Shown here in pieces: positions 6,509-20,734 of a stretch of DNA of 23,003 nucleotides. The stretch's first letter is position 1. Each line of letters opens with the position of its first letter. Source of the stretch: a virus; the IMG/VR virus record IMGVR_UViG_3300030107_004382, positions 712 to 23,714 of that record. One strand, written 5' to 3'. The notes beneath the pieces are model-generated. The model had not been told where the DNA came from, did not search any database, and was given only the letters and a program-made list of their open reading frames with translations. Both the position numbers and the translations under genes were made by a program.

Positions 6509-7525
6509 ATGACGCAATTAACTACGATGCCTTCTTCCAAAACAAAACCTAGTTCAATCACAAACTTTGAAGCCTCTTTCTCTATGTTTAGAGAATCTGA
6601 ATTTATTTCAGGTATTGATGGCTTTGGTACACTTCAACCTTTACATAACAATGACAAAGCTTATTGGGCTGTAAAAGAAGAAAGTTTGAAAGCATGTAAG
6701 TGGACTGCCACTGAAAAAGATTTTGATAAAGATTCAGTTCTTTGGAATCATTCTCACCGTTTTCATAATGGTGCTAGAGAATTAATGCATGCATTTATTA
6801 AACCAAGAATTCAAATTATTCATACCTCCAACATTTTAGTTGTTGATGATTCCATTTTAGATAGAAATGGAAAGTCGATGAATATGATTATTGGTGATTT
6901 ATCTATGCCTCATGTTGCTAAAGCATTTGAAGTAGATAAAGAAAAAGCTGGAGACAATGGTAATCGTCAGTATTCAACTAGAACTAAATATCTAGTTAAT
7001 ATCTTGACTAAAGATAATCAACCAGCTCATGAAGTACCTTTAGTTTTTACTGTTAAAGGATTAGCTAGTGTTGATATGTCTCGCATGTTAAAAGAATTTA
7101 CTAAACAAATGAATAGGTGTTATAGCACTGGTTTAGAATTAAAAAGTGATATGCGATTTGATGAAAGAACACAAGCAGGATATGTTTTTGTTCCTGAATT
7201 AGATATTAGAAGTGTTGATGCTCGTGGAAACAGAAAGGTAAGTATTCCTGCAATCGTAGACTACAAAAAACCTGATTATTCTACAGTTGAAAAAGCTAAA
7301 GAATCTATGTTTGAATATTCTATTCCTATAGAGAATAGAGAAAAAACATGGGAACAAATGCAAGATGATTTCTTAGGAAATTACATTAACAAACATAGTG
7401 AACAGGAAGCTGCAAAGCTTAATGGTGCTTATGGTATTGCTGAAGGTGTTCCCGCTTTAATGCCTAAAACAGTAGCTGTTCTACCAGAAGGTGCAGAAGA
7501 TACTGGAGAAGACGCAGCTTTATGA
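6509..7525 (+). CDS. DUF5895-like protein (338 aa), next to SSB
   Basis: Not firmly recognised; overall layout recalls the cyanobacterial DUF5895 proteins found on plasmids and phages, but I cannot verify this. Low-complexity start (MTQLTTMPSSKTKPSSITNF), a globular core with Trp-rich strands (AYWAVKEESLKACKWTATEK), a segment HEVPLVFTVKGLASVDMSRM resembling a ligand- or DNA-binding domain, and an acidic C-terminus (PEGAEDTGEDAAL) that could mimic an SSB-like tail. It follows SSB and the structured leader at 6388-6486, suggesting a role in DNA replication or ssDNA handling. An alternative start is ATG 6524 or 6581. The stop overlaps the convergent NblA-like gene by six bases. Confidence 0.6.
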   Translation: MTQLTTMPSSKTKPSSITNFEASFSMFRESEFISGIDGFGTLQPLHNNDKAYWAVKEESLKACKWTATEKDFDKDSVLWNHSHRFHNGARELMHAFIKPRIQIIHTSNILVVDDSILDRNGKSMNMIIGDLSMPHVAKAFEVDKEKAGDNGNRQYSTRTKYLVNILTKDNQPAHEVPLVFTVKGLASVDMSRMLKEFTKQMNRCYSTGLELKSDMRFDERTQAGYVFVPELDIRSVDARGNRKVSIPAIVDYKKPDYSTVEKAKESMFEYSIPIENREKTWEQMQDDFLGNYINKHSEQEAAKLNGAYGIAEGVPALMPKTVAVLPEGAEDTGEDAAL

Positions 7526-7744
7526 TTTAAGGATTATTTTATCTGGGCTAACTAGTTCACTAATTAGCCCTTTTATAATGACATTACGTTGTGTTGCTAA
7601 TTGTGCAAGATAAGTAGCTACTTGTTTTAAAGCTTCTTTATCTTCACAGTTATCAATACTTCTTTTAAATTTTTCAAATACAAATTGATCTTCTAATGGA
7701 ATCTTATATTCTAAGTATTCTAATTTAGAAGATTTCTTTTCCAT
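7520..7744 (-). CDS. NblA-like phycobilisome degradation adaptor (candidate)
   Basis: A 74-residue reverse-strand protein. Residues 16-54 run PLEDQFVFEKFKRSIDN, then an A-L-K-Q helix and LAQLATQRN. This follows the pattern of NblA/Ycf18 proteins (sLEqqFslrsFeeqVqnms..qAqdfLv.Ly.qm..rE): LExQF at 17-21, F26, hydrophobic I30, N32, A38, then L/Q/R spacing with one extra residue. Size is close to the ~60-residue family norm with a short charged extension at each end. It has a good AAAGGA ribosome site. NblA tags phycobilisomes for Clp degradation; phage NblA is known from a Microcystis phage and from uncultured marine cyanophages. Other short cyanobacterial helical families share part of this pattern, so the call needs a profile search. 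Confidence 0.5.
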   Translation of the reverse strand: MEKKSSKLEYLEYKIPLEDQFVFEKFKRSIDNCEDKEALKQVATYLAQLATQRNVIIKGLISELVSPDKIILKS

Positions 7745-11341: not shown

Positions 11342-11514
11342 ACTGTTATCTTTGTGGTACTCCACTTAATATATCAAGCAATATAGATTTCCCAGAACAT
11401 GAACTTTATAATATGATTAGTTTTTTTGATTGTCCTAAATGTAATGCAGCTGTAGAGGTATATCATCCAATAGATCAAAGAGCTTCTACTTCTTGCCAAT
11501 GCTCAATACGATGA
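11338..11514 (+). CDS. Zinc-ribbon miniprotein (58 aa)
   Basis: ATGA-coupled to the preceding gene. The 58-residue product has two CxxC knuckles, C3-Y-L-C6 and C32-P-K-C35, in the spacing of a small zinc ribbon (MNCYLCGTPLNISSNIDF; FFDCPKCNAAVEVYHP), and a third CxC near the C-terminus. Such miniproteins can bind nucleic acid or modify a protein partner. Its last 40 bases overlap the convergent HNH gene. It is short, but the ordered cysteines make it a good gene candidate. Confidence 0.6.
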   Translation: MNCYLCGTPLNISSNIDFPEHELYNMISFFDCPKCNAAVEVYHPIDQRASTSCQCSIR

Positions 11515-11741
11515 CAGTTACTACATAAAGGAATACATTTTTCCATTTCTTTTACAATATTTTTCCAACTATAACCAACACCTACCATACGAGAAATACT
11601 ATTCTCTTTATTACCAAGGTGATGAAATTCTAGAACACGATAATCATCTAAGCCACAAGCTTTACAGCATAATGTTTTCTTATGCGTTATTAACTTTTGC
11701 CTGTTTTTACGTATTCGTTTTTTACTACTTTGCCAACTCAT
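11475..11741 (-). CDS. HNH endonuclease (88 aa)
   Basis: Compact HNH nuclease. A basic N-terminus (KKRIRKNRQK) precedes C26-K-A-C29, the catalytic pair in LEFHHLGNKE (H40, H41), and C73-S-N-C76-H-R-I-E-H81. The CxxC...HH...CxxCH...H layout is that of zinc-stabilised HNH enzymes of homing-endonuclease or phage type. It is a stand-alone reverse-strand gene with a 40-base tail-to-tail overlap, typical of mobile freestanding HNH genes in phages. Its start is 15 bases downstream of the methyltransferase stop, so the two are probably co-transcribed. Confidence 0.88.
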   Translation of the reverse strand: MSWQSSKKRIRKNRQKLITHKKTLCCKACGLDDYRVLEFHHLGNKENSISRMVGVGYSWKNIVKEMEKCIPLCSNCHRIEHWQEVEAL

Positions 11742-11756
11742 AATATTTACAAAGTA

Positions 11757-12344
11757 TTATTCTTTCCATATCCATGCTATTTGATATTCATCTATATAAG
11801 GTTTTAAATCTAATGCATCCATTAATTCTCCAATAAGCCGACCTTTCCCTAGTAGTCTGCCATCTGCTGCTCTTAAGTTATCATCTACAACAATTAAAGT
11901 TCCTGGTTTAATGATATTTTTAGCTGCAAATAATTCTTTTAAATGATGTGCAGAGGACTCCCAATCATTTCCCCAATCTGTAATATTGAATGAATCTAAA
12001 TAAAGTAAATCTACTTTTCCTTCTAAATAACCTAATTCTTCTACTGAGTCACCACAAATAACTTCAACACGTTTACTTGTATTTTCTCTAGCAAGTTTAC
12101 ATGCTTTAGGACTAATATCAATTGAAATGACATTTCCTCCTCTATACTTTACATAATTATCAAATAATAATGTAGAACAACCATCACCTCGATAATTGTC
12201 CTCTTCCCTGTAGCAGCCTGTTTCTACAATGAAGATTTCTTTATCTTTAATGTCATCTAAATACTTAAAAATTGTTCTAAAACTATCTGTTCTTCCCCCT
12301 AAACTTTCAGATATATCATCAAAATATTCATTCCAAAAAGTCAT
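11757..12344 (-). CDS. Class I SAM-dependent methyltransferase-like protein (195 aa)
   Basis: Rossmann-type order: motif I region FIVETGCYREEDNYRGDGCS, then NVISIDISPKACKLAREN with acidic D after strand 2, RVEVICGDSVEELG, and VDLLYLDSFNITDW. It ends GTLIVVDDNLRAADGRLLGK and YQIAWIWKE. Similar to Methyltransf_24-type proteins found in cyanophages and in surface-sugar gene clusters; the substrate is unknown (a sugar or small molecule is as likely as DNA, since no DNA-methylase DPPY/NPPY motif is seen). It is reverse-strand with its own promoter (12368-12395) and AGGTAA upstream. Confidence 0.78.
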   Translation of the reverse strand: MTFWNEYFDDISESLGGRTDSFRTIFKYLDDIKDKEIFIVETGCYREEDNYRGDGCSTLLFDNYVKYRGGNVISIDISPKACKLARENTSKRVEVICGDSVEELGYLEGKVDLLYLDSFNITDWGNDWESSAHHLKELFAAKNIIKPGTLIVVDDNLRAADGRLLGKGRLIGELMDALDLKPYIDEYQIAWIWKE

Positions 12345-13391: not shown

Positions 13392-13574
13392 ATGGAAATA
13401 AACGTTTCCGTTGGCGAGTGGATGAATACCCTTAAAAGTCGTATGGAAAATGCGACAGATGGGGATTGTTTTCATTTGCCGACACAAATGCATTATCACG
13501 CATTCACGCTATTAAAAGAAGAGGTGTTCCCACACAAAAAACTTAATGTAACCATTGACAACACTCAACTCTAA
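13392..13574 (+). CDS. Small unknown protein (60 aa) coupled to primase-helicase
   Basis: MEINVSVGEWMNTLKSRMEN, then ATDGDCFHLPTQMHYHAFTL and a charged end. The stop overlaps the primase-helicase ATG (TAATG), so it should be translated with it. GC is higher here than in the flanks, continuing into the first bases of the primase gene. Not recognised; the position makes a primase partner possible but unproven. Confidence 0.6.
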   Translation: MEINVSVGEWMNTLKSRMENATDGDCFHLPTQMHYHAFTLLKEEVFPHKKLNVTIDNTQL

Positions 13575-16171
13575 TGACAAAAACAAATCAAAAATCTTTG
13601 AAACCAGGAGAAATCCGACTTGACTTTATATCCAAAGAATGGCCTCTCACACCTTTAGGAGCAAATAAAGATCCTTATATTAGTGGATGGCAAAACAAAC
13701 CATGTAGTGTCCATGAAATTGAAACTGAAATTCTTACAGGGCAATGTAAAGCCATCGGCCTTTTATCAGGTCCAGTTTTTAATCTCCCTTATGGTCTGGT
13801 ATGGGTTGATGTTGATGGCCCTAGTGTTTACGAATTAATTGAAGGCTTATCTGATAAAGATTTAGATGTAGCTTTACCAAAAACATTAACTATTCTTAGT
13901 GGTAAAGATGGAAGAGAAAGAAAACTTTATCGTTTAGATCGAGAAAAACATAAACATTTTGTACGTAATAAATATACTTGGCATGCTGAAACAGACAAAG
14001 AAAAATTAGAAATTCTTTGGAAAAAACATCAAGGTGTTTTGATGGGTTTACACCCTGATACCAATGGATATTACACTGCTAAAAATGAAGGTTTTGAATG
14101 GATTTCTAAACTTCCTGAATTACCTGAGTGGATATTAAATTGCATTATTAATAAAAATATAAAACAAGGTTTACCAGCAAAAGAAACAACTAGAATAGTA
14201 GGCCCTACTTTTGCTGTAAATGCTGAAGCCTCTCTCGAAAGAGACATGCAACTCGCTACTGAAGCTATGTGGTCTATGCCTTCAGAAGCATGTGATGACT
14301 ACGACATTTGGATTACTATTGGTCAGTCGCTTCATTCGCTTGACGATTCGCTTCTTGATGATTGGGATGAATGGTCTAAGCAATCTTCTAAATATAAAGC
14401 TGGTGAGTGCAGCAAACGTTGGAAAAGTTTTGACAAAGGCGGGGCACGTACTCTTGGCTCTTTAATCCATCATGCAAAAGAATATGGATGGAAACCTTCT
14501 CAAGAACATAAAACAATCAATAGAGAAATTGATGAGAAAACATTAAAGGAATTAAATCAAATGCTTGACGAATTTCATTCAACACCCACTGCATCTAAAC
14601 CTAAAGTTGTACGTAATGAAAAAAAAATTTCAACATCAATAAATAAAGGAAGAGAACAAAAACCTCGTAATCCTTCTTCTGATGTTATTGCTAATGTTTT
14701 AATTCAATCTTATGACGATTGTTTAAAATACAGTCAAGCTCAAGGTTGTTTCTTTAATTATAATTATCACTCTAAAGGTTTATGGTCTGCTTTATCAGAT
14801 ACAGAAACTAAAGGTGAAATAAAAAATAGACTTGAAATGTTAAAAGATCAACTGTTACCTAATGGTTACAGTATGAATCTTGTTAATGATGTATTAGAAC
14901 AATTAAGAATTACATTAATACATGATGATTGGTATGAAGGTAATGATTATTTACTATTTAAAAATGGAATCTTAGATATAAAAACAAGAGAGTTGATTCC
15001 TTTTAATAAGGAAATGTATATGACGCAACAACTCCCTTATGAGTATGATACACAAGCTACATGTGAACCCATTATTAAATGGTTAAAACATGTACAAGAT
15101 GATAGTTGGGGAAGAGTACAAGTCCTTAGAGCATGGTTACGTGCTGTTCTATTAAGTCATTCAGATATACAAAAGTTTGTAGAAATTGTTGGTCCAGGTA
15201 AATCAGGTAAGTCTACTTATTCCAACCTTGCACATGCATTAGTTGGTGATACGAATGCCATTATTTCTCAATTAGATCATCTGGAAAAAAGTAGATTTGA
15301 AACTGCAAATTTATATAAAAAGAAATTACTTTTATTCAATGATGTTGAAAGATACGGTGGTTCAGTATCAGTATTAAAAGCAATTACGGGTCGTGATTTA
15401 ATTCGAAATGAACGTAAATTTCAAGCTGGTTCATTAAAGCCGTTTAAATTTAATGGGTTGGTAATGATAACTGCAAATGAACCAATACAAACGACAGATC
15501 CTACATCTGGGCTTGCACGTCGTCGTCTTACTATTCCTTTTGATCGACCTTTCACTGGTAGTGCAGCTGAACAACGCACCTTAATTGATATGGACGATAG
15601 CGGTAATCCTTTTGGTGATTTCGCTTCTTTACTTCCAGGATTGGTGAATTGGTTATTAGATATGGATGAATTAGATATGCGTGAATATTTAATGGAAACA
15701 AATAAAAAAGTTTCCTTCTTTGCTAAACATCATCGAGAACAAATTCTTAAATCAAATCAAATTATGGATTGGATGGATCATTGTTTGATTTTTGATCCAG
15801 GTAGTTCTGCATCTGTTGGATTAGCTAAAAGTTCTCAGCCAGGTTCAACTAATGTTTATATTTCATGGGATAAATGGCTTTATGCAAGTTATTGTGAATT
15901 TTCAAAAGCTTCTAACAGTAATATTCTTGGACGAAGTAGATTTGAAACTTTATTAATGGATGTTTGTGTTCATCAATTACGTTTAAATGTTTATAAGTTT
16001 AAAGATCGTAGAGGTATGAGAGTTAAGAATATTTCATGTCGTGCAGCTGATCAAAAATATATTGAATATCCTTCTATCATTGAAGTTGGATTGAATAAAG
16101 AAAAATGGAGAACTGAATATGGTGACATAATTGATAAAAAAGAAATGAAAGTAGAACAGACAGAAGATTAA
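13574..16171 (+). CDS. PrimPol / SF3 (D5-type) primase-helicase (865 aa)
   Basis: A large multidomain replication enzyme. Residues ~1-200: primase-polymerase-like domain with the metal pair D79-V-D81 (VWVDVDGP). Residues ~217-305: PriCT_2-like domain (YDIWITIGQSLHS, then W..W...S.ky...C...W.SF). Residues ~370-500: D5_N-type region. Residues 540-548: Walker A (GPGKSGKST); D590-V-E592: Walker B; TANE with N635: sensor 1; R649-R651: arginine finger (ARRRLTIPF). It should synthesise primers and unwind DNA. The T7-type polymerase is paired here with this SF3 helicase, not with an SF4 gp4-like helicase. It starts by TAATG coupling and a G-free leader. The PriCT_2 region is locally GC-richer. Confidence 0.93.
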   Translation: MTKTNQKSLKPGEIRLDFISKEWPLTPLGANKDPYISGWQNKPCSVHEIETEILTGQCKAIGLLSGPVFNLPYGLVWVDVDGPSVYELIEGLSDKDLDVALPKTLTILSGKDGRERKLYRLDREKHKHFVRNKYTWHAETDKEKLEILWKKHQGVLMGLHPDTNGYYTAKNEGFEWISKLPELPEWILNCIINKNIKQGLPAKETTRIVGPTFAVNAEASLERDMQLATEAMWSMPSEACDDYDIWITIGQSLHSLDDSLLDDWDEWSKQSSKYKAGECSKRWKSFDKGGARTLGSLIHHAKEYGWKPSQEHKTINREIDEKTLKELNQMLDEFHSTPTASKPKVVRNEKKISTSINKGREQKPRNPSSDVIANVLIQSYDDCLKYSQAQGCFFNYNYHSKGLWSALSDTETKGEIKNRLEMLKDQLLPNGYSMNLVNDVLEQLRITLIHDDWYEGNDYLLFKNGILDIKTRELIPFNKEMYMTQQLPYEYDTQATCEPIIKWLKHVQDDSWGRVQVLRAWLRAVLLSHSDIQKFVEIVGPGKSGKSTYSNLAHALVGDTNAIISQLDHLEKSRFETANLYKKKLLLFNDVERYGGSVSVLKAITGRDLIRNERKFQAGSLKPFKFNGLVMITANEPIQTTDPTSGLARRRLTIPFDRPFTGSAAEQRTLIDMDDSGNPFGDFASLLPGLVNWLLDMDELDMREYLMETNKKVSFFAKHHREQILKSNQIMDWMDHCLIFDPGSSASVGLAKSSQPGSTNVYISWDKWLYASYCEFSKASNSNILGRSRFETLLMDVCVHQLRLNVYKFKDRRGMRVKNISCRAADQKYIEYPSIIEVGLNKEKWRTEYGDIIDKKEMKVEQTED

Positions 16172-16228: not shown

Positions 16229-17494
16229 ATGCCAAAAAAACCAAAACTTTTATGGTGTGGAGATATTGTTGCTAAAACAGGTTTCTCTAGAGTAACTGAA
16301 AATGTTCTTCCTTTTCTAGCAAAACATTTTAAGATATCTGTCCTTGGTAATAACTGGTGGGGAGATCCAACTCCTTTACAGAAGAAATATACAATGTATC
16401 CTTCTTCTAATAGATTTCAAACTGCTCCTTTTGGTGAACAAAGAATAAGAGAAATAGTGAGAATAGAAGCTCCTGATCTTATTTTTAGTATTAATGACAT
16501 GTGGATCATTAATGAACAATATAAACAAATAAAAGATTTTCATAAAGATAAAAAATTTAAATTCATTGGTTATGCACCTATGGATTCTTATGGATGGACT
16601 GGATGTTTGTCAGACACTTCCAATGATTGGGATGGAATTATTTCTTATACTCAATTCGGTGCTAAAGAATTTATTAGCGGTGGAGTTACTAAACCTATTG
16701 CTGTTATTCCACATGGAGTTACTCCAGGGCAATTCTATCCAATAGACAAAAAAGAAGCTAGAAAAGAATTAGGTATAGATGAAAATGCTTTTATAGTATT
16801 TAATGGTAATCGTAATCAATTTAGAAAACGTATTGATATAACTATTGCTGCATTTGCTCAATTTGCTGTTGATAAACCTGATGCTCAGTTGTATTTACAT
16901 ATGGGTAAAAAAGATCAAGGTTGGGACATTATGAATCTATTTGATCGAGAAATGAAACGAAATAGACTTGATCCTAATAATAGAATTATTCTTACAGCTG
17001 ATGTTGAAGGCCCACCAAATGTAGAAGTTGAAACTTTAAATACTATTTATAATGCTGCTGATGTAGGAATTAATACCTGTAAAGGTGAAGGATGGGGCTT
17101 AGTTAACTTTGAACATGCAGCTTGCAAAGTAGCTCAAGTTGTTCCAGGGCATACATCTTGTAAAGAAATCTTTGAGGGATATGCTCGTTTAATTAAATGT
17201 GATCATATTGATACAGATACTAATTATGGACGTGAAATGCCTTGTCCATCAACCAAGCATTTAGTAGAAATCTTAAATGATTTATATAACAATAGAGATA
17301 AATTAGAAGCTACAGCAGAACTTTGTTATGAACGAGCATTAGAAAAACAATTTGAATGGGAAAGAATCGGTCTTCAATTCACTGGAGTATTTCAAGATAC
17401 TTTAAAAGGTGTTGATCATTCACTTGAGAAAAAACCTAAACCTAAACCTAAAAAGAAGCCTGTAAGAAAAAAGAGGAAAATAGGTAATGCTTAG
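16229..17494 (+). CDS. GT4-type glycosyltransferase (421 aa)
   Basis: GT-B fold, two domains. The N-terminal half (MPKKPKLLWCGDIVAKTGFS; GYAPMDSYGWTG) leads to PHGV at about residue 160. The C-terminal domain has FNGNRNQFRKRIDITIAAFA (sugar-nucleotide domain start) and the E-x7-E region GEGWGLVNFEHA at about 285-297, the nucleotide-sugar site of GT4 enzymes. The last ~25 residues are highly basic with a PKPKPKKKP repeat, perhaps a nucleic acid- or phosphate-binding tail. It uses no Shine-Dalgarno. It overlaps the cupin gene by eight bases, suggesting one sugar-modifying unit acting on host surface or phage components; the substrate is unknown. Confidence 0.8.
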   Translation: MPKKPKLLWCGDIVAKTGFSRVTENVLPFLAKHFKISVLGNNWWGDPTPLQKKYTMYPSSNRFQTAPFGEQRIREIVRIEAPDLIFSINDMWIINEQYKQIKDFHKDKKFKFIGYAPMDSYGWTGCLSDTSNDWDGIISYTQFGAKEFISGGVTKPIAVIPHGVTPGQFYPIDKKEARKELGIDENAFIVFNGNRNQFRKRIDITIAAFAQFAVDKPDAQLYLHMGKKDQGWDIMNLFDREMKRNRLDPNNRIILTADVEGPPNVEVETLNTIYNAADVGINTCKGEGWGLVNFEHAACKVAQVVPGHTSCKEIFEGYARLIKCDHIDTDTNYGREMPCPSTKHLVEILNDLYNNRDKLEATAELCYERALEKQFEWERIGLQFTGVFQDTLKGVDHSLEKKPKPKPKKKPVRKKRKIGNA

Positions 17495-17840
17495 AAAGAT
17501 TACCTTTCGACCTTGGGGATGGTGGCAATCAATATTCCAAGGACCTGGCTATCTTGCTAAAGTTATTAACGTTAAAAAAGGACAACAACTTAGTCTGCAG
17601 TATCACAATCATAGAAGTGAAACTTGGATTATTGCATCAGGACAAGGAGAGGTTTTTGCTAATGGTATATGGCAAAAAGCTAGAACTGGTAAATGTATTC
17701 ATATTCCTGTTAAAGGTACTCACCGAATAAAAGCTGATAAAACAGACTTAGTTCTTATAGAAGTCCAATTTGGGGATAAAATTTCTGAAAAGGATATTGT
17801 ACGTATAGAAGATGATTATGGAAGAGTTGAATTAAAATAA
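17487..17840 (+). CDS. Cupin phosphomannose isomerase-like protein (117 aa)
   Basis: Type II cupin of mannose-6-phosphate isomerase (ManC C-terminal) kind. RPWGWWQSIFQGPGYLAKVI is followed by LSLQYHNHRSETWIIASGQG (H, H, E: metal ligands in SLQ.H.HRsE.W), and then IHIPVKGTHRI (third His), with VQFGDKISEKDIVRIEDDYG at the end. The length fits a single-domain isomerase. It starts inside the glycosyltransferase stop (ATGCTTAG overlap). The pair suggests phage-encoded sugar-precursor supply plus transfer. Substrate specificity cannot be read from sequence. Confidence 0.85.
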   Translation: MLRKITFRPWGWWQSIFQGPGYLAKVINVKKGQQLSLQYHNHRSETWIIASGQGEVFANGIWQKARTGKCIHIPVKGTHRIKADKTDLVLIEVQFGDKISEKDIVRIEDDYGRVELK

Positions 17841-17847
17841 ATAAATT

Positions 17848-18822
17848 TTAAAGGCCCATTTCATCAAATCTATCATCAATTAATTTATTCCACCAAGAAG
17901 GTGCTGCCTTCATTTCTCGACTTATTAAATCTACATCAGAAGGTCCAAGAGGAGAACCTCCAATAGAAGGACTTTTTTTATTCTTCCAATAATTAGGATT
18001 CATTGATTCACTTTCTTTTAATAAAGTAGGAGCATATTCTTTTAACGGATTTTTAATTTTATTTAACATTGCTAAACCTTGTAAAGCAACATCTTCTGCT
18101 TCATTAATCTGTCCTCTACTCATTAAATCAAAAACTGATTCTTTTAAAATAATTCCTTCATCTATTAATCCTGCTTGCAACATTCCGTCTTTAACTTCGT
18201 TTGCAATTTGATCTATTTTGTCAGCTCTATCTAGTTTTCTAGTATATCCAAAATCAAGTTGTATTGGTTCTTTTGTTTTTTTATGGATTAAAACATTTCC
18301 TCCATGACGATCATTTACTTTATAACCTGCTTTATTTAATTTAGCCATCTGTTGAGCTTCTGCTAATTTATAAGCTCTATATTTCATAGAATTTGGATCA
18401 TTAGTTAAATCCAAAAAAGAAGAATAACGTCCTTTAGATCCTAAATGTTCCGTTAAAGGCATATAGTTATTACGCAAATCTTCCATAACTATTTGTCCAT
18501 CGTATAACTGATTAATTCCTTCAGCTTTCATATTTACACTAGGTTTTCTCTTACTAGGGTTGGTATAAACAACATCAACTCTAGGTGCTATACCTAATTC
18601 ATATGCTAAAGATTGAACATCAGCTTCTCTTAATATTTGTTCTTTATCTTTACCTTTCATAAATTTAACAACATTTCCTGGAGTTCCTTCATAAACAGTA
18701 CCTTGAACTCCTTTTCCTACTGTAGTTAAATATTTAGTTGAATTAATAGGTTGATAACCAAGTGTTTTAGCAGCTTGTGCTCTTTTAGCAGCATCTAACC
18801 ATTTAGGTCTGAAATTAAACAT
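17848..18822 (-). CDS. Protein kinase-like protein with full catalytic motif set (324 aa)
   Basis: The kinase fold motifs are all present. Gly-rich loop VGKGVQGTVYEG (G36, G38, G41), the lysine in VVKFMKG (K53), an alpha-C glutamate (E66), a hinge at MED (113-115), catalytic loop VNDRHGGNVLI (D171, N176) and LDFG (D190-F191-G192). The DRHGGN form recalls PI3K/RIO-like loops, not HRD, so it could phosphorylate protein or a small molecule. Residues ~265-324 are a Pro/Ser-rich, Trp-containing tail of unknown role. It is on the reverse strand with seven bases to the convergent cupin gene, starts next to the inverted repeat at 18870-19010, and lies just before the virion-like genes. It may regulate the host or be packaged. 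Confidence 0.75.
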   Translation of the reverse strand: MFNFRPKWLDAAKRAQAAKTLGYQPINSTKYLTTVGKGVQGTVYEGTPGNVVKFMKGKDKEQILREADVQSLAYELGIAPRVDVVYTNPSKRKPSVNMKAEGINQLYDGQIVMEDLRNNYMPLTEHLGSKGRYSSFLDLTNDPNSMKYRAYKLAEAQQMAKLNKAGYKVNDRHGGNVLIHKKTKEPIQLDFGYTRKLDRADKIDQIANEVKDGMLQAGLIDEGIILKESVFDLMSRGQINEAEDVALQGLAMLNKIKNPLKEYAPTLLKESESMNPNYWKNKKSPSIGGSPLGPSDVDLISREMKAAPSWWNKLIDDRFDEMGL

Positions 18823-18869: not shown

Positions 18870-19010
18870 AAAAACACAGAATAGGGTATTTTTTTCTTAT
18901 GCGTAGTTTAAATTACACTTCTATTCTGAGTCTTATGAGACTTAAAAACTTAGAATAAAAATGTAATTTATCTCTAGACATAAGAAATTTCTATCCTATT
19001 CTATGTTTTT
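18870..19010. repeat. Long imperfect inverted repeat between divergent genes
   Basis: The two halves pair over most of their length. Left arm blocks AGAATAGG (18878-18885), TTTCTTATG (18893-18901), TAAATTACA (18909-18917) and TATTCT (18922-18927) pair with CCTATTCT (18995-19002), CATAAGAAA (18979-18987), TGTAATTTA (18962-18970) and AGAATA (18952-18957), with 7-8 base gaps on both sides. Flanking AAAAACA pairs with TGTTTTT. A small inner hairpin (AGTCT/AGACT) sits near the centre. Each half points outward to a gene start, so it may be two copies of one promoter or regulator in opposite orientation, or a cruciform. Confidence 0.75.
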
Positions 19011-20011: not shown

Positions 20012-20734
20012 ATGGCTCGCAACCAAGTTACACAACGACAAAGAACAGCAAAAGATCCTTTATTAGTTGGTACATTTGAAGAAACGTCAATTCGTTATTT
20101 AAAAGGTACATTAGGAGGAAAAAATCAACCAATTAGAGGAGGATATGGAGGAGGAACTCTTAACCATTGGTTTAAAATTAAATTAAATACTCCTGCATGG
20201 ATTATTACAGTTAAAGCAGGTGGATGGGAAAAGTGGTTTACTGTTTCTGCTTATGATATGAATAGAAATCCTATATCTGGTAGAGGGATTTTTACAGAAG
20301 ATAGTTTAGAAGTTATAGAAGATGGAAAAGTATATCATCCTTATACAGGCCATATTATGGCAACAGAATCTGAACTATATAATCAATATGATCCAGAACG
20401 TTTAGATAAAGGTGATTCAAGATATTATCCATTAGATATAGGAGAATATTTAATTGCTGTATCTAGCACATTAAATACTCCTTTCGATTATGAGCTTGGT
20501 ATAGTTGTTGAAGTTGCTGATACATTACCTGTATTATTAACAGAAAATTATGATCGTTTGTTATTAGAAACTGTTGGACTTGAAGATGACATATTACTTG
20601 AAACTCCTGAAACTTATAGAGGAGAAGACAGTCATGATCATTCATTATCTGAATGGCAATCAGCATGGAGAAGAGAAAGACAAACTTATGAGAAATTTCC
20701 AGAAATCCTTGTTAGTCTAACTACTAAACCATAA
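20012..20734 (+). CDS. Probable virion/structural protein (240 aa)
   Basis: Strand-rich protein: LVGTFEETSIRYLKGTLGGK, NHWFKIKLNTPAWIITVKAG, WEKWFTVSAYDMNRNPISGR, then RYYPLDIGEYLIAVSSTLNT and DYELGIVVEVADTLPVLLTE. Short beta-strands with little charge, and loops rich in Gly/Asn, resemble virion or tail-associated proteins in cyanophages. Residues ~165-240 are acidic and helical (LLLETVGLEDDILLETPETY). I have no named family. TATAAT lies just before the ATG but is too close to act as promoter for it. No Shine-Dalgarno. Confidence 0.6.
   Translation: MARNQVTQRQRTAKDPLLVGTFEETSIRYLKGTLGGKNQPIRGGYGGGTLNHWFKIKLNTPAWIITVKAGGWEKWFTVSAYDMNRNPISGRGIFTEDSLEVIEDGKVYHPYTGHIMATESELYNQYDPERLDKGDSRYYPLDIGEYLIAVSSTLNTPFDYELGIVVEVADTLPVLLTENYDRLLLETVGLEDDILLETPETYRGEDSHDHSLSEWQSAWRRERQTYEKFPEILVSLTTKP

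Follow-up and report, generated by a model that had tools for sequence, protein, structure and literature searches.

A long imperfect palindrome beside the HNH genes of S-EIV1-like cyanophages: a candidate origin of lytic replication

Introduction

The oriL of herpes simplex virus is among the few viral origins that are built as a palindrome of approximately 140 bp; its symmetry is near-perfect, it lies between divergent genes and it has its own origin-binding protein, in a virus that is unrelated to the lineage of Synechococcus phage S-EIV1. The Sulfolobus plasmid pRN1 carries a 232-bp non-coding origin located 3′ of orf904, which includes a 100-bp stem-loop and is essential for replication (PMC3869888). 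The loop of this structure is 58 nt long and contains a GTG motif, and the small plasmid is thought to replicate by the rolling-circle mode (PMC3869888). Long AT-rich palindromes are also found at or near the origins in the mitochondrial control regions of insects, in some lineages only (PMC1762429).

The S-EIV1-like phages are little studied; an isolate exists, and its genome is mostly unannotated. Here, a palindrome adjoining two HNH genes of this lineage is described from one window, namely the whole stretch of 23,003 nt of DNA that was analysed, and is compared with its counterparts in related genomes. The original prediction for this locus had offered two readings of the repeat: a promoter or regulator sequence duplicated in inverted orientation for two divergent genes, or a cruciform related to attachment or replication.

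Results

The window and its relatives

The window comes from a 23,714-base virus record and belongs to the S-EIV1-like cyanophage lineage. Its 865-aa replication protein (Table 1), which contains Prim-Pol, PriCT_2, D5_N and DUF5906 domains and is encoded a few kb upstream of the palindrome, shares 60% identity over 98% with the primase of S-EIV1 (KJ410740). HNH2 is 43% identical to its S-EIV1 homologue, and S-EIV1 was the only deposited phage matched by HNH2 and by the 240-aa gene at 20012 (g240). No DNA similarity at the blastn level was found between the window and deposited phages. Homologous replication genes are accompanied in the window by the usual gene order of the lineage (PrimPol, glycosyltransferase, cupin in some cases, HNH1, HNH2 and g240), which is also present in most of the contigs compared. 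The comparison set comprised approximately 80 further contigs of the lineage from IMG/VR, and eight near-complete records (78-85 kb) were taken in full. No origin is annotated in the S-EIV1 record. At 7027-7725 of that record, the start of the HNH2 homologue appears to be lacking from the deposited annotation: the homology reaches 7662 on the minus strand, but the annotated CDS occupies 7027-7467, the remainder being taken up by two small opposite-strand ORFs.

Structure of the palindrome

Local self-complement alignment identified a near-continuous imperfect palindrome of 141 bp that lacks a real loop and in which 54 of the 69 aligned arm positions form Watson-Crick pairs. Five pairs of blocks are distributed along the arms (Table 1), and the coordinates of paired blocks sum to 37880 for the outer and 37879 for the inner blocks, which places all of them around a shared centre with a single 1-nt slip. 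No other palindrome in the 23-kb window reaches its self-complement score of 65, and 200 dinucleotide-preserving shuffled copies of the whole window gave at best 45 (mean 30.5). The arms and blocks were located correctly in the original prediction, and they are imperfect inverted copies of one sequence. Hairpin formation had been proposed as a check; as single-stranded DNA, the palindrome is predicted to fold strongly (-25.8 kcal/mol, z -6.8), equalled by none of 200 shuffles.

Seven consecutive T, which are conserved, follow the GAATAG block of the left arm; this arm is 100% identical across 71 nt to that of one relative, L014. The right arm ends 12 nt before the start codon of HNH1 and probably overlaps the promoter or leader of this gene. 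A small GTCTYA..TRAGAC hairpin lies at the centre or to the left of the palindrome and is nearly unique to the locus in most genomes; each record contains only 0-3 such hairpins, and 8 of 10 records have one or more of them at this locus.

Table 1. Positions of the palindrome, its parts and neighbouring genes (window coordinates, unless a contig is named)
Feature	Position	Strand	Remarks
PrimPol-PriCT2-D5 helicase-type replication protein	13574-16171	+	probable initiator, should the palindrome be an origin
Cupin gene (mannose-6-P isomerase C-terminal type)	17487-17840	+	ancestral left neighbour
Kinase-like gene	17848-18822	-	recent insertion 3′ of the cupin gene; outside the ancestral element
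Palindrome	18870-19010		
Left arm	18870-18939		blocks AAAAACACAGAATAGG, TTTCTTATG, TAAATTACA, CTATTCTGAGT
Central short hairpin	18930-18941		GTCTTATGAGAC
Right arm	18941-19010		blocks ACTTAGAATA, TGTAATTTA, CATAAGAAA, CCTATTCTATGTTTTT
Outer arm segments	18870-18906 / 18974-19010		ungapped, 78% complementary
Inner arm segments	18909-18934 / 18945-18970		85% complementary
Block pair AAAAACA / TGTTTTT	18870-18876 / 19004-19010		
Block pair AGAATAGG / CCTATTCT	18878-18885 / 18995-19002		
Block pair TTTCTTATG / CATAAGAAA	18893-18901 / 18979-18987		
Block pair TAAATTACA / TGTAATTTA	18909-18917 / 18962-18970		
Block pair TATTCT / AGAATA	18922-18927 / 18952-18957		
HNH1, 102 aa	19022-19330	+	PHROG 99 HNH endonuclease; small HNH-type protein
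HNH2, 220 aa	19330-19992	+	zinc-binding His-Me/HNH endonuclease-like core protein
Inserted 254-aa gene (relatives)	L005:2538-3302; L015:3212-3976; L019:3212-3976; L010:237-1001; L032:7633-8394		

Conservation in the lineage

At a loose threshold (self-complement score of at least 39), 33 of 40 representative loci, including that of S-EIV1, have a long palindrome immediately 5′ of the HNH genes; relatives thus keep the pairing of the arms, a point on which the original prediction had been made to depend. These palindromes span 102-370 bp, their central loop is 0-1 nt in all 33 but one (L089, 180 nt), and their right end often lies 0-12 nt before the HNH1 start. In six of nine records of approximately 80 kb, the palindrome at the HNH locus is the strongest of the genome, its score and that of the next best being 61 and 28 in G001, 67 and 28 in G002, 33 and 30 in G003, 94 and 34 in G006, 71 and 30 in G009, and 44 and 28 in the cultured S-EIV1. 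The strongest palindrome of G008 (score 40) is located elsewhere, near 70.1-70.4 kb (L138:10101-10400), and has no obvious relation to the element at the HNH locus. PrimPol and the glycosyltransferase gene flank HNH2 in L082, L092 and L096, and the palindrome is still upstream of HNH2, which indicates that its linkage is to the HNH genes.

An intact long palindrome is absent from one subclade (L005, L010, L015, L019/G007 and L032), in which a 254-aa gene separates the outer arms and the inner right arm has been partly lost. Since the arms are split in this subclade, either the intact palindrome is dispensable there or its function has been relocated. This gene, together with the kinase-like gene at the left edge of the window palindrome, suggests that the palindrome is a preferred site of gene insertion. 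In L037/L042/L046, the outer arms or blocks are recognizable, but the middle retains little symmetry and the symmetry score is weak.

Age of the divergent arrangement

Among the relatives compared, the kinase-like gene occurs at the left of the palindrome in the window and L014 only. Its family matches are weak (PF00454, E 0.0066; PHROG 18305), and a 37% relative is encoded elsewhere in L045 (1656-2309). In relatives without the kinase, the upstream gene is a co-oriented cupin or glycosyltransferase gene, and no divergent gene pair was found. The cupin stop codon lies inside the left arm in L013, L016, L018 and L029, where GAATAG or GAATGA doubles as this stop codon and as a segment of the outer block. 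Insertion of the kinase-like gene has separated this block from the cupin gene in the window and L014 and left it unchanged. The window and L014 are 98.6% identical in the palindrome, compared with 91.4% in the kinase-like gene, 89.4% in HNH2 and 90.6% in g240. The kinase is thus a latecomer: in all likelihood, the palindrome existed before the divergent arrangement and is no device for two divergent genes. At 11475-12344 of the window, an 88-aa HNH-like gene and a 195-aa methyltransferase-like gene, both so judged from sequence, run leftward; this pair breaks the rightward module and resembles a second inserted cassette.

Retention of symmetry during sequence turnover

Within each of 19 diverged genomes, the two arms match each other at z 8-40, whereas 108 of 171 comparisons of arms between genomes gave no detectable similarity (z <4). 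The sequence therefore turns over while the symmetry is kept. The arm positions that are not Watson-Crick pairs comprise 153 G-T and 191 A-C over 40 loci, counts that are not phylogenetically independent, and the mismatch pattern shows no strand bias. As G-U pairs are favoured in RNA hairpins and are not in excess over A-C here, the symmetry appears to be kept as DNA rather than as RNA. The locus shows, in a natural setting, a long palindrome persisting through concerted change of its arms.

In the clade of the window, the conserved blocks are separated by unpaired spacers whose length hardly differs between genomes, and 28 of 62 pairs are invariant. Covariation among the 13 closest sequences was not above that of shuffles, because the blocks hardly vary in this clade; the block sequence, and not pairing alone, is therefore constrained there. 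Outer positions in L016/L017 have nevertheless been swapped in both arms, from A-T to G-C at columns 14/133 and from G-C to A-T at columns 15/132. The two arms are similarly conserved (mean identity 80% and 83%), yet only the right arm faces a gene start in most genomes.

The HNH proteins

The model of HNH1 (pLDDT 93) has as its best match I-HmuI, a nicking HNH enzyme, with a probability of 0.72 and a weak E-value of 0.12; six members among the HNH1 homologues match HNH_3. Among 36 homologues of HNH2, 46 columns are invariant, and these include a Cys/His zinc-binding-like N-terminus and a C-x-N-P-L-H motif. Its confident model (pLDDT 85) gave weak PDB matches only, headed by I-PpoI (E 0.69); five members show weak links to the I-PpoI-type zinc loop family. 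By sequence, no relatives of HNH1 or HNH2 with a solved structure were found. Practically all loci that cover the region have HNH2, with the palindrome intact beside it, so that neither the patchy presence nor the interrupted site of an HNH homing locus was observed. HNH1 and HNH2 look like core nucleases and not like itinerant homing genes.

Signals at the locus

Between the palindrome and the gene upstream of it, 30 of 38 representatives have a GC-rich hairpin followed by a T run, which corresponds to an intrinsic terminator; the exceptions are the clade of the window and L096. Transcription of the HNH genes must then start inside the palindromic interval, which makes a promoter likely there in most genomes. 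In the window and six relatives, near-exact matches to the blocks are confined to the two arms. A genome-wide phage promoter motif was accordingly rejected, and the search that had been proposed for the block set upstream of other genes found none. Sigma-70-like sites in the region numbered 25, compared with 28.4 in shuffles. A structured-RNA family was likewise rejected, as no Rfam family scored above the cut-off and the comparison of G-T with A-C was negative. Integrase (PF00589), serine recombinase (PF00239) and protelomerase (PF16684) are absent from 12 records, some of which are possibly incomplete. Attachment and telomere functions are thus unlikely, and attP, a resolution site and a protelomerase site (such as telRL of N15-type phages) were rejected; the attachment site of the original prediction is not supported. 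Cumulative GC skew bends at the locus in S-EIV1, G001, G004 and G006 and shows no bend in G002, G003 and G009; GC3-skew does not flip cleanly across the locus.

Discussion

We tentatively regard the palindrome as a cis-acting DNA control locus, most likely an origin (or one of the origins) of lytic replication that overlaps the HNH promoter, a reading to which we assign a probability of roughly 0.4. Of the original prediction, the inverted copies have held, with the pairing kept in related genomes, the divergent promoter and the attachment site are not supported, and a replication-related palindrome is the best of its alternatives, as a candidate. The PrimPol-D5 helicase would recognize and open the dyad, perhaps with the assistance of the adjacent HNH nuclease(s), and the opened strands, folded as hairpins, would become accessible for priming. 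The start signals of the HNH1-HNH2 transcript would likewise be located in this stretch. The adjacency of the HNH genes could alternatively reflect transcription control. The split arms of one subclade, the weak symmetry in L037/L042/L046 and covariation no higher than in shuffles within the clade of the window also weigh against an origin, and the course of GC skew at the locus differs among genomes. It is tempting to speculate further that a long self-complementary palindrome, maintained by concerted evolution, opened or nicked by the HNH pair and loaded by PrimPol-D5, represents a new type of phage replication-initiation element, doubtful as such a step still is. No element of this kind appears in the titles and abstracts of the literature covered, to which the original S-EIV1 genome paper does not belong. 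A palindrome that is lineage-wide and fixed in position beside core nuclease genes would be an easily tested candidate for a replication start.

A purely transcriptional role is a possible, though less probable, explanation. The region would then carry the promoter of an HNH1-HNH2 operon, including any genes downstream, with symmetric operators for a multimeric phage regulator, and the left arm would hold a further set of mirrored operators. The need for a start signal downstream of the terminators, the closeness of the palindrome end to the HNH1 start in many genomes, and the blocks with unpaired spacers of fixed length in the clade of the window, as in protein-binding sites, are consistent with this arrangement. 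However, the symmetric arms, at up to approximately 170 bp, are far longer than operators, no other gene carries the blocks, sigma-70-like matches are at the level of chance, and the symmetry stays across subclades while the sequences turn over. A hairpin acting in the transcript, as a processing site, an attenuator or a protective structure, is improbable: it would agree with the strong single-strand fold and with the lack of a terminator ahead of the palindrome in the clade of the window, but most relatives do have terminators ahead of it, and both the mismatch counts and the Rfam search speak against RNA. The divergent promoter finds its place in the window itself, where the kinase-like and HNH genes do diverge from the palindrome; since the palindrome is present in relatives of which just one has the kinase, the idea that inverted copies of one promoter drive both genes is largely refuted, and what is left of it is that the kinase-like gene may use a pre-existing leftward start.

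The conserved core character of HNH2, the persistence of the palindrome beside it despite altered gene order and the likeness of HNH1 to a nicking enzyme would also fit a site that is cleaved or nicked by HNH1/HNH2 for the start of recombination, for packaging or as a homing-type locus. We consider this unlikely, because the fold matches are weak, ordinary homing is hard to reconcile with genes and site that adjoin in every genome, and the terminase gene of S-EIV1 lies approximately 30 kb off around the circle, which argues against packaging. A non-functional quasi-palindrome, whose symmetry is preserved by template switching from arm to arm during replication, is very improbable. Such conversion could by itself give concerted change with turnover, but not the fixed position in the lineage or the low divergence of a palindrome that is conserved more strongly than the flanking genes; moreover, asymmetric features are conserved, among them the T run in the left arm, and long palindromes without use tend to disappear.

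By analogy, the stem-loop origin of pRN1 would be the closest counterpart of the phage palindrome. Orf904 is a PrimPol/helicase of the same broad class as the candidate initiator of the phage, the gene is located upstream in both systems, and the phage likewise has a long palindrome in non-coding DNA near a PrimPol/helicase gene. On the other hand, the phage palindrome is near-continuous, spans 102-370 bp, adjoins HNH genes, lies a few kb from the PrimPol gene and belongs to a lytic genome of approximately 80 kb. The palindromes of insect mitochondria differ in that they are located in organelle DNA and have no link to PrimPol or HNH proteins. Palindromic regions that act as single strands near replication genes are also long, imperfect and non-coding; by contrast, the arms of the phage palindrome are without strand bias.
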